From Candidatus Methanoplasma porotermitis (GTDB taxonomy: Archaea > Thermoplasmatota > Thermoplasmata > Methanomassiliicoccales > Methanomethylophilaceae), in contig JAITOF010000018.1 in NCBI GenBank assembly GCA_031290095.1, positions 1 to 43,595 of the forward strand: a stretch of 43,595 nucleotides of DNA, written 5' to 3'. The notes under the pieces were generated by a model. That model worked only from the letters and a program-made list of their open reading frames with translations. It was not told the DNA's origin and did no database searches. Position 1 is the stretch's first letter. Each line of letters opens with the position of its first letter. Both the position numbers and the translations under genes were made by a program. This document shows, one piece after another, positions 39,224 to 43,595 of this stretch.

Positions 39224-40555
39224 TCATGAGGCTTCCTCTCCGACGATGTCGCACACGTCCGCGTCGAGGCAGAACGCCGCATAGAGCGGGACGTTGAATA
39301 TCTTGTTCTCGAAACCGAAGTTCTTCGTGGACACCCTGATCGAGAACGGGACGCCGTATTCTTCCGCAAATACGGAAAGGCTCCTCGATCTCACGTGCGA
39401 AGAGCTCTTCACCTCCACGGGCACCGCGTTGCCGTCCGAGCCTTGGAACACGAAATCCACTTCCCTGCCCGGCGACGGCGCCCAGTAGTACGGCTTCACG
39501 CCGTTCGCCCTGAGGGCTTGCATGACGAAGTTCTCCGATAGGGCGCCCTTGTACCCGTCAAGGCTCTCGCTGTCGGAGAGGATCGTCTTCGCTGGAATCC
39601 CGAGCTTCGACGCGAGAAGCCCGGAGTCTACCATGTACAGCTTGAAGAACGGCTCTTCGGAGTGAGCGCTCAGCGGCATCGTCCCGGTGCTTATCCTGCC
39701 GCATCTGTTCACCAGCCCGGACACGCGCAACCAGTTGAGCGGCGAACCCGCCTCCCTTGTGCGGGTGCCTTCCGCCACGTCCCTGAGGACGAACCTCTTG
39801 TTCTCCTTGACCAGCTGGTCGGAGATTGAGGACCAGATTGCGCGGATCATCACAGTCTCCGTCTTCGTGGTGTACTTGGACATGTCCCCCATGTACGTGG
39901 CGTCCATCTCGGCGTGGATGGCGGTTATGTCGGGCGCGGACGCGCCTTCGGAGTATCTCTTCACGGCTTCTGGAAGCCCTCCGACCGTCAAATACGTCCT
40001 GTAGACGTCCATCGCCCTGTCGTGGAGGTCGTATTTCCGTTGCGACGAGAACGACCTTCTGACGCCTTCCGCGACCTTTTTGTCGCCAGTGGCCCACATG
40101 AACTCCTCGATGTCCATCGGATGCATCCTCATGATGTTGACGTTCCCTACGGGGAATGAGAAGCCGTCCCTGTCGAGGGCGATGCCTAGAAGGCTCCCAG
40201 TGGCCATCACGTGGTAGCCCGGGTCGTTCTCCCGGAAGTATTTCAGGGACGTGAGGGCGCGGTTGCATGCTTGGATCTCGTCGAGCACGATCAGCGTGTC
40301 TCCTTCCTTGATGTCGACTCCGCTCAGAACAGACAGGGAATCGACGATGCGTCCAGTGTCGAGGTCGCCCTCGAATATCTTGGAGGCCCGGCCTGTGAAC
40401 TCGAAGTTGAAGTACGCCACGTTCCTGTAATGGGTGTGGCCGAAGTCCAAAGCCGTGTACGTCTTCCCGACCTGCCTAGCCCCGCACAGCAACAACGGCT
40501 TGCGGTCGGGGTCGCTCTTCCATTTCAATAGCTTTGCAGCGATCTTCCTCTCCAT
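39224..40555 (-). CDS. AAA ATPase with DUF4143 domain
   Basis: LLLCGARQVGKTYTALDFG Walker A, LIVLDEIQACNRALTSLKYF, YLTVGGLPEAVKRY, DSGLLASKLGI, EVDFVFQGSDGNAVPVEVKSSS. Confidence 0.93.
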   Translation of the reverse strand: MERKIAAKLLKWKSDPDRKPLLLCGARQVGKTYTALDFGHTHYRNVAYFNFEFTGRASKIFEGDLDTGRIVDSLSVLSGVDIKEGDTLIVLDEIQACNRALTSLKYFRENDPGYHVMATGSLLGIALDRDGFSFPVGNVNIMRMHPMDIEEFMWATGDKKVAEGVRRSFSSQRKYDLHDRAMDVYRTYLTVGGLPEAVKRYSEGASAPDITAIHAEMDATYMGDMSKYTTKTETVMIRAIWSSISDQLVKENKRFVLRDVAEGTRTREAGSPLNWLRVSGLVNRCGRISTGTMPLSAHSEEPFFKLYMVDSGLLASKLGIPAKTILSDSESLDGYKGALSENFVMQALRANGVKPYYWAPSPGREVDFVFQGSDGNAVPVEVKSSSHVRSRSLSVFAEEYGVPFSIRVSTKNFGFENKIFNVPLYAAFCLDADVCDIVGEEAS

Positions 40556-40591
40556 AATGTGTAAGAAATACACTAAATATTTATGTTTTTT

Positions 40592-40606
40592 GTGTAAATA
40601 TTACAC
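40592..40606. promoter_or_regulatory. Palindrome GTGTAA-ATA-TTACAC upstream of the DUF4143 ATPase
   Basis: Perfect 6-3-6 dyad ~40 bp upstream of the start codon, in an AT-rich spacer. Confidence 0.5.
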
Positions 40607-40879: not shown

Positions 40880-40891
40880 CCCCCCCCCCCC
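40880..40891 (+). repeat. Homopolymer tract (C)12
   Basis: Read directly: atg-cccccccccccc-ataagc. Confidence 0.95.
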
Positions 40892-40991
40892 ATAAGCCGT
40901 CTGGACGCCCTCGAAGCAGCTCAAAAAATGGTCGCACTTGGCCGAAAACCGCGAGTGCCCCAAAGCCGCAGTTGAGGTTTCATTAAATAAG

Positions 40992-43595
40992 ATGTATGCG
41001 TTGAACAGCTCACAGCTGCGGTGGACGGATTTGGGCAACGCGTTGCAAGACTGCGACGCAATTCCTGTCTTGAGAAGTGCAGAGGGGGGAGAGTTAGATG
41101 ACATTATATGCAAGAGGGGGGGGGGGAAGGCGCATGCACGCAGGCGCCTTGCTCTGTTCCTCACGGTCGCGTTGTTGCTCGCGGGCGCAACGCTGTTCCT
41201 GACGGAGAGTCAGGAAGAGACAAAGTTTTACGACAGCTCTGACGGCGCGACGGGGTTGTATGTTTATGCCGCCACGGTGGCTTATGACGAGAACCTCGTC
41301 CTCTCCGGTGGAAGTTTGTACTTCTTGGGAGGGCATGTGGAGTACGACGACGGAATCGCGCTTGGCTGGACGCAGTACGGCACCGGCAACATTGCGGGAG
41401 TGGAATACGATTCGCAGTTCAAGCTGAAGGCCGTGCCGGATCCGGGATACAGCTTCCTGTTCTGGGTGGAGGCTGAAGCCTCCGCCGTCGGAAGCCTGGC
41501 AGGCTCTGTTCTTACAATCGATGTCGCCACCGACTACAGCAACGGCTACATGGCGGACCCGGTGCTGTCTGAAGGCGACTCCTATTGGCATTTCGAGACA
41601 GAGGTCGACGTTCCGACGCCCGGTTCCGACATGTTCTATCTGGCGGTGTTCGCCCCCAGCGACAAGGTCAAGGAAGTGACGCTGTACAACGACGGCCTCG
41701 ACGGCACGGACGAAGGATTCTGGATGGTGAGTCAGGAAGTTATATTCAAAAAAGAATACAATGACCTTGGATACGTGTTCGGCATCTATGGCGCGGCAGT
41801 CCACAACATCTCGTCGGCAGACAAGTACAGGACCATCAACATCTTCGACGGAGAAGACGCCGTCGGAGATTCTAACGGCAGCGGGGGCATCCGTGCCGTC
41901 GGCAAGACTAACGGCTCGGGAGCGGAGTACAAGCCCTCGTACATATCGGGGACTCACAACATAGTGACGTATGAATGGATATGGTATCTCGAAGCGGAGA
42001 GATGGCAGGGCTATGACAATATATGGCTCCCGTCCGACCTCGAGCTGCATGCGTACTTCGCGCCTGCGTCCTTCGACTACGGAGGGAATCCTACTTACGG
42101 CGACGAGGGCTTCAGCGGGAGGACCTTGGTTGTTGTGAACGACCACTCGGTTATAATCCGTGCCAGCGACGGGCAATACATTGGCATTTACCAAGTTCCG
42201 GAACTGGAGATAACATTCGGCAACAACTACCCGTTTCTCATGGGGGAATCCCATATCTCCATCAGATATCCGGGTACAGATTATGAATGGCATGAGGGCC
42301 AGTTGCGCATACCTTACGACCCCGAATGGGGCCAAGTGACGATAACCGCCGTCGGAAACGCCGACAACGAGTTCATGCAGCTATGGGAGTGGCATGACTC
42401 GAACGACGCCAACGCGCCTGTCAACAGGGACGCCGACACAAGCGCGTTCGACCCCTTGGTGACTATCCCGCTGAGCTTGGGCAACAAAGCGAACGACGAC
42501 TTTTTCAACAACACCATACCTGGTGAAATATACGTGCTAGGCAGGTTTGCCGCCGTGCAGGATTACATAGACATCAGCATCACTGTGAACGACCCGACCT
42601 ACGGGAAGCCGATGGTGAGCGAGGAGTTGGATATCCAGTTTGACGACAGCTATGGTGTAGTTTTCCGTATACCTTATGGTGAGCCGCATTATTTCGAGCT
42701 GCCCTACAACGGCTCGGAGTACGTGATGAAGCATCCTGTCCGAACCAGCGTTGCCAGCAACGGCTTCTGGAACCTCATGGCCCAGCCCGAGCCGGGCAAG
42801 ATGCTCGGCTGGTGGACCGACGAGTCGTACAAGGTCGGGGACACTAGGCAGTGGTACGCCTACGGCGACCTGTACTACGGGGACTACTCGTGGGTGTACG
42901 AATGGGACGCCGTGGACGGATGGGGCACATGGCAGTCAGGGCAATACGAAGGTCATCTGATCGAGCTGAACCTCCAGGCGTACTTCGTCGACGACGACGC
43001 GAACCCGCTCATACTGACCGTCGGCAAAGGCGGGATGTCCCATGTAGACATCGACGGCATAGAGGGCGGCTACGTCCTCAAAGTGGGTACAGACCTCGAC
43101 CTGAACAGTGACGACTACGGCGACTTCTTCGCGACGTACGCTTCAAGGAACTACGGCTCCTACGAAGACTCTCTCGTATATTTGAGCTGGGGCTCGGAGT
43201 GGACCCCTTACGCAGGGACGGCGCTGATGTACGTCAACAGGGACGCAGTGCTCGACGTCGAGACCATACTCGACTTCGCGGGCGACAAGTTTTCATACTG
43301 GTATGGCGCGCTCAGCGGGACGGACCCTTCCGGGGGGACTGTCGAGATGTCCGGTCCGCAGTACCTCGTGTCGTGGACCGTAAGGGACTACACGACGTTC
43401 GAGTTCGACTTCCTCGAAGACATTTACGGAGAGGTTGTTTGGGAGTATGACACGAGCGACTTCATGTTGGGATATGGCCGCGGCGCGTTCACGGACCAAG
43501 ACTACGACGGCATGCCCGACTGGTGGGAGTGGCTGCACGGCTTGGACCCGATGGACGCGAGCGACAAGGATGCGGACATAGACGGCGACGGCCTG
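40992..43595 (+). CDS. Large secreted/surface protein with N-terminal hydrophobic signal region and Ca-binding-like D-x-D-x-D-G motifs; truncated by window edge
   Basis: Frame open from ATG 40992 to the end of the window; RRLALFLTVALLLAGATLFLTESQEE, long acidic/aromatic ectodomain, ending DQDYDGMPDWWEWLHGLDPMDASDKDADIDGDGL. Absent from the ORF track presumably because there is no stop inside the window. Confidence 0.85.
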   Translation, partial: MYALNSSQLRWTDLGNALQDCDAIPVLRSAEGGELDDIICKRGGGKAHARRRLALFLTVALLLAGATLFLTESQEETKFYDSSDGATGLYVYAATVAYDENLVLSGGSLYFLGGHVEYDDGIALGWTQYGTGNIAGVEYDSQFKLKAVPDPGYSFLFWVEAEASAVGSLAGSVLTIDVATDYSNGYMADPVLSEGDSYWHFETEVDVPTPGSDMFYLAVFAPSDKVKEVTLYNDGLDGTDEGFWMVSQEVIFKKEYNDLGYVFGIYGAAVHNISSADKYRTINIFDGEDAVGDSNGSGGIRAVGKTNGSGAEYKPSYISGTHNIVTYEWIWYLEAERWQGYDNIWLPSDLELHAYFAPASFDYGGNPTYGDEGFSGRTLVVVNDHSVIIRASDGQYIGIYQVPELEITFGNNYPFLMGESHISIRYPGTDYEWHEGQLRIPYDPEWGQVTITAVGNADNEFMQLWEWHDSNDANAPVNRDADTSAFDPLVTIPLSLGNKANDDFFNNTIPGEIYVLGRFAAVQDYIDISITVNDPTYGKPMVSEELDIQFDDSYGVVFRIPYGEPHYFELPYNGSEYVMKHPVRTSVASNGFWNLMAQPEPGKMLGWWTDESYKVGDTRQWYAYGDLYYGDYSWVYEWDAVDGWGTWQSGQYEGHLIELNLQAYFVDDDANPLILTVGKGGMSHVDIDGIEGGYVLKVGTDLDLNSDDYGDFFATYASRNYGSYEDSLVYLSWGSEWTPYAGTALMYVNRDAVLDVETILDFAGDKFSYWYGALSGTDPSGGTVEMSGPQYLVSWTVRDYTTFEFDFLEDIYGEVVWEYDTSDFMLGYGRGAFTDQDYDGMPDWWEWLHGLDPMDASDKDADIDGDGL
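41116..41126 (+). repeat. Homopolymer tract (G)11 inside the 5' coding region of the surface-protein gene
   Basis: Read directly: gcaaga-ggggggggggg-aaggcg. Confidence 0.95.

Follow-up and report, generated by a model that had tools for sequence, protein, structure and literature searches.

Results

The tract gene in the window

The window, that is, the whole stretch of DNA analysed (43,595 nucleotides), is the entire contig C78 of the 1.62 Mb genome, 93.6% complete, of a Methanoplasma (Methanomassiliicoccales), a methanogen of termite-gut type. On its forward strand, which carries all the features of the locus given here, a Shine-Dalgarno (SD) sequence (GGGGGGAG, 41084-41091, with GGAG at 41088-41091) stands 6 nt 5' of ATG 41098. 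The start codon and the n-region codons M T L Y A R (41098-41115) run into a tract of 11 G (41116-41126), whose 3' end adjoins a predicted signal peptide (KAHARRRLALFLTVALLLAGATLFL, 41127-41201); the latter opens a putative surface-protein frame of 823 codons (41127-43595, GC3 0.75) that is truncated by the contig end. With the 11 G present, ATG 41098 reads MTLYARGGGGRRMHAGALLC... and the product ends after 34 aa at TGA 41200-41202, whereas with 12 G the same codon reads MTLYARGGGGKAHARRRLALFLTVALLLAGATLFLTESQEE... and continues for 833 aa with no stop before the contig end at 43595. The tract is thus located within the gene itself, as a direct fusion of start to signal peptide, and a change of one G is enough to connect the start codon with the gene or to separate the two, the surface-protein frame being obtained with 12 (9, 15) G. 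Recomputation of the tract, GGAG and TGA bore out an earlier sequence-only reading of this locus, according to which 11 G leave the SD-preceded ATG one base out of frame and a twelfth G brings it into the frame of the signal helix and ectodomain. The peptide given in that reading behind the tract had lost one R, the correct form being KAHARRRLALFL.

No Pfam match was obtained for the window protein at E 0.01, hence none to LRR_5 (PF13306), and a match to Flg_new_2 was weak (E 0.5). Relatives of this protein were not found among the 16 other genomes of the genus.

A TATA-like box (ATTAAATA, 40982-40989) with a putative promoter role lies at -116 from the leader ATG 41098. Most tract genes of the leucine-rich repeat (LRR) family described below present TTTAAATA, NTTAAATA or a near variant at about 104-116 nt 5' of their leader ATG. 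Further upstream, 90 nt 5' of the box, a C12 homopolymer (40880-40891) that is absent from the sequence-only reading directly follows an ATG; its flank is similar to those of a G12 tract at C13:15183 (76% over 66 nt) and of a G13 tract at C74:7514. An operator-like repeated inverted GTGTAA...TTACAC (40558-40605) precedes a divergent ATPase-like gene (39224-40573).

Poly-G/C tracts across the genome

G/C runs of at least nine nucleotides numbered 65 in the 1.62 Mb genome in contrast with 11.9, 2.8 and 0.75 expected per 1.62 Mb under Markov models of orders 3, 5 and 6, respectively, trained on 433 kb of the same genome; this and the following tract counts are approximate because several contig ends (C65:1-83 and the ends of C46 and C66) consist of long or impure poly-G/C that is probably an artefact of assembly or sequencing. 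It is at one such tract that contigs C97 and C65 adjoin. In the 434 kb around tracts, runs of 6, 7, 8, 9, 10, 11, 12, 13 and 14 nucleotides occurred 122, 16, 2, 1, 7, 16, 17, 13 and 5 times, respectively. This distribution is bimodal, with a separate peak at 10-14, whereas A/T runs displayed no comparable second peak. Pure tracts therefore exceed what chance would give, and they form a genome-wide set of loci in predicted surface genes; some others are intergenic, or are located inside non-surface genes or close to them. Tract length ranges from 10 to 13 among paralogs whose flanks are nearly identical. Runs of at least 11 G amounted to 57 in the genome of the window and 76 in that of Ca. M. 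glyptotermitis, among 197 Thermoplasmatota genomes of which 148 had none and the third highest count was 15.

A leader ORF precedes the LRR genes

At least 12 tract loci (family A) share one architecture, in which an SD and an ATG (mostly ATGACA) are followed by 12-21 nt, a tract of G10-14, about 115 nt and then the surface gene. The products are BspA-type LRR proteins (PF13306, LRR_5; E 1e-62 to 1e-107 in the three members scanned) with signal peptides resembling MKARSYAAVLAVLALAAAGAFL. Archaeal LRR proteins (L139 among them) share about 30-49% identity with LRR proteins from Bacteroidales and Clostridia, many of which come from animal guts, a resemblance for which gene transfer is a possible explanation.

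In exactly one tract phase the leader is open for 46-52 residues and closes at a TGA sharing bases with the start codon of the gene, an ATG or GTG (A/GTGA), whereas in the other phases it nearly always ends about 50 nt earlier, where two TGAs lie about 8 nt apart. The overlap is present in 12 complete LRR loci and in three tract-free paralogs. No stop appeared in 460 ON-frame codons vs. 15.4 expected at the off-frame rate, a comparison to which no probability is attached as the loci are related. A further locus with a longer leader, at C87:735, is ON with the G12 that it now has; altogether, 4 of 13 loci are now ON. The tract-free paralogs (L316 at C18:16644, L317 at C10:7490 and L312 at C87:3061) have a leader of 48-50 residues fixed in the coupling frame, thus acting as an internal control that identifies this frame as the working one. 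In these three paralogs the leader ATG is preceded, at a distance of about 30 nt, by a TATA-like box.

Selection on the leader peptide was considered and rejected, since there was no purifying selection on it (pN/pS 0.78, the same as in the other frames); our claim is therefore restricted to the frame and does not extend to the peptide. Z-scores for an RNA hairpin at the main start were negative in 12 of 12 cases (mean about -1.7) with a pairing register that is not fixed, and are taken as a hint only. The overlap of leader stop and gene start in a single tract phase suggests a translational coupling that is switched by the tract. The window gene, being a direct fusion, has no leader ORF stop overlapping its main start codon. 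Exact leader patterns gave no match in genome_contigs, in viral_contigs (searches from which records near the window's genome may have been excluded) or among the other Methanoplasma genomes.

Direct fusions and other tract loci

Two more loci, C91:5977 and C24:2847, resemble the window gene in that the tract directly joins start codon and signal helix (family B). All three are at present one base off frame, and the products of the two additional loci are GLUG/InlB-repeat proteins. At C18:1703 the signal peptide lies upstream of the tract and in a different frame. A C10 tract at C73:28249 (L092) separates frames of 840 and 1294 codons that apparently constitute one large repeat-adhesin gene. 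The adhesin-like domains among products of tract genes were LRR_5, GLUG and InlB repeats.

Two tracts occupy the SD position about 10 nt 5' of a gene start: a G12 before an InlB-repeat gene (L088, C65:23016) and a G14 before a ribonucleotide reductase gene (L105, C93:53721). Tract length could tune initiation at both. Phase-variable restriction-modification was considered at C85:17302, where a methylase motif (FDFITSNPPYVRS) adjoins the tract, but it was rejected as the short fragment is broken in all frames.

Tracts in other Methanoplasma genomes

In Ca. M. glyptotermitis (G013) the signal segment SRLNITVLFAAALFLAAAFFVTYSE is encoded at 50 places, some of which represent one gene split by a contig end. 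A tract of G11-G13 stood immediately 5' of this segment in 29 of 29 judgeable copies among the best 30 of the 50, and an SD-ATG leader of 16-23 codons was found in 27 of the 28 copies examined, the tract lying between start codon and signal helix. In the copies read, the signal frame contained no ATG, GTG or TTG in the stretch that separates tract from helix. A promoter-like box (TTATATAT) precedes the SD (AAGGAG) by a constant distance, both being uniform in most copies. The protein of this family is LRR_5.

Only 2 of 27 copies are in frame now. Over the 36 codons that follow the tract, read in the ON frame, the 26 out-of-frame copies displayed a pN/pS of 0.14, and their signal segments contained no stops in the ON frame vs. 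62-79 in the other frames. The OFF copies are thus under strong purifying selection and kept functional, which indicates switched genes rather than dead ones.

In a closed genome of the genus (G007; 1,488,669 bp), probably that of Ca. M. termitum, two genes have a tract of 10-11 G at the end of their signal peptide (C1:401013 and C1:452003), in frame in one case and out of frame in the other. Similar cases appeared in two other genomes (G003 and G005). Tracts of this kind ordinarily change in length when the replicating strand slips. MutS (PF00488) was detected in none of 31 Methanomassiliicoccales genomes, with the same search positive in 11 of 14 controls; in its absence the tracts may be especially unstable.

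Discussion

We consider it probable that a gene of the window for a secreted or surface-anchored protein carries, in the G11 tract at its 5' end, a slipped-strand contingency switch, one of several dozen in this genome, with most LRR copies being switched through leader-ORF coupling. The tract and its frames, the excess of tracts, the architecture of the paralogs and the selection acting on the OFF copies of Ca. M. glyptotermitis are read from sequence. Translation of the window gene would begin at the SD-preceded ATG 41098, and replication slippage in living cells would add or remove a G in the tract, so that the signal peptide and ectodomain would be in frame with the start codon and its n-region only at 9, 12 or 15 G; the assembled 11-G state would yield the 34-residue peptide and leave the gene OFF. 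In most LRR copies, one tract phase would let the leader ORF bring ribosomes to the ATGA, and the surface protein would be made by translational coupling. The tract of the window most likely sets the ON (12, 9 or 15 G) or the OFF (10, 11 or 13 G) state. The proposal of the sequence-only reading, a candidate slippage phase variation in an archaeal surface gene, is well supported as judged from the sequences compared, and would apply to many loci beyond the window.

An unlikely alternative is that RNA polymerase or the ribosome slips on a G run of fixed length, so that each cell would always contain a mixture of frames and the tract would act as a dampener of expression rather than as a genetic switch. 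Some bacterial genes make use of transcriptional slippage at stretches of nine A or T (PMC1088944), and the copies of Ca. M. glyptotermitis, mostly out of frame yet under selection, would fit slippage of polymerase or ribosome as well. However, the cases documented in that work are A/T runs, tract lengths vary freely among paralogs, and the tract-free paralogs fix the ON frame, as expected if the frame matters.

It is very unlikely that the count of 11 is an error of assembly or sequencing, with a tract that always has 12 G, a gene that is constitutively ON and tracts that are poly-G artefacts. Evident poly-G junk does occur at some contig ends and homopolymer counts from short reads can err by one, but most tracts are internal and flanked by plausible sequence, both of the other phases are represented among the out-of-frame lengths, and the same picture is obtained in a second assembly, that of Ca. 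M. glyptotermitis, and, with fewer tracts, in the one-contig genome of 1.49 Mb.

The sequence-only reading had also suggested that tract length picks between two functional N-termini, one starting at ATG 41098 and the other at ATG 40992 (40992-40994), an option to which we now give very little credence. The long frame of the window is open upstream to 40896, so that ATG 40992 is indeed in frame at G11, as that reading stated; the weaker SD context ascribed to this codon was not confirmed, as no SD was found there. ATG 40992 lies 3 nt past the TATA-like box, which stands at the usual distance of the LRR family, and a start there would put 50 extra residues ahead of the signal helix. Archaeal transcription starts about 25 nt downstream of the TATA box, a point that would here fall beyond ATG 40992. 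Given its place next to the box, this codon is probably outside the mRNA, upstream of the transcription start, and unused. The assembled G11 state is thus most likely OFF instead of encoding a longer protein.

Finally, decaying pseudogenes with tracts as neutral mutational runs would account for surface-gene copies being mostly out of frame in the assemblies, but this is hardly tenable when the OFF copies retain long open frames with a pN/pS of 0.14 in the signal segment and the tract position is constant within each family rather than random.

Beyond the single locus, we favour, with some reserve, a broader view: Methanoplasma of arthropod guts would run a large poly-G phasome comprising tens of surface genes, mostly OFF, one class of which would be a genetically switched translational coupling via leader ORF and ATGA, a mechanism absent from the literature searched. 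If true, these gut archaea would diversify their surface by mutation of the kind that also serves commensal and pathogenic bacteria, and would do so with no mismatch repair of the MutS type, and the benefit of such archaeal surface diversity might be linked to viruses, protists or the host as possible drivers. Ca. Methanoplasma termitum, probably the source of the closed genome with tracts at signal peptides, would provide a ready test system. It has been described as a highly enriched culture and its genome has been sequenced; the genus is known only from arthropod guts (PMC10684969).

The remark of the sequence-only reading that contingency loci of this kind are little documented in archaea agrees with the literature, in which a search covering few subscription papers and no preprints, where absence is not proof, returned no report of phase variation in Methanomassiliicoccales or of an archaeal poly-G phasome. 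In a 2018 search for invertible DNA, six archaea yielded no case, and a 2025 review on phase variation (PMC11868660) leaves the distribution of such loci in archaea to future work. A survey of homopolymers at gene 5' ends that included 18 archaea (Orsi et al., 2010; PMC2831843) found short A/T tracts there, with poly-C/G tracts not significantly closer to 5' ends, whereas the Methanoplasma tracts are long poly-G/C runs near gene starts. A large SSR phasome in archaea would accordingly be a new form of a switch that is well known in bacteria and hardly reported in archaea. Translational coupling from a short upstream ORF that controls the gene behind it is described in the accessible part of the account of iraD (PMC5574718); compared with iraD as presented there, the coupling frame in Methanoplasma depends on homopolymer length in the leader.

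The poly-G/C loci of Campylobacter, Neisseria and Helicobacter share with those of Methanoplasma pure G tracts of about 8-14 nucleotides at the 5' end of surface genes, the flip from ON to OFF by one base, and the presence of many loci per genome. In contrast with these bacteria, Methanoplasma is an archaeon, its promoters are of the archaeal type, it lacks MutS, its targets are BspA-type LRR and InlB-repeat proteins, and many of its switches seem to use a leader ORF whose stop overlaps the start of the gene.
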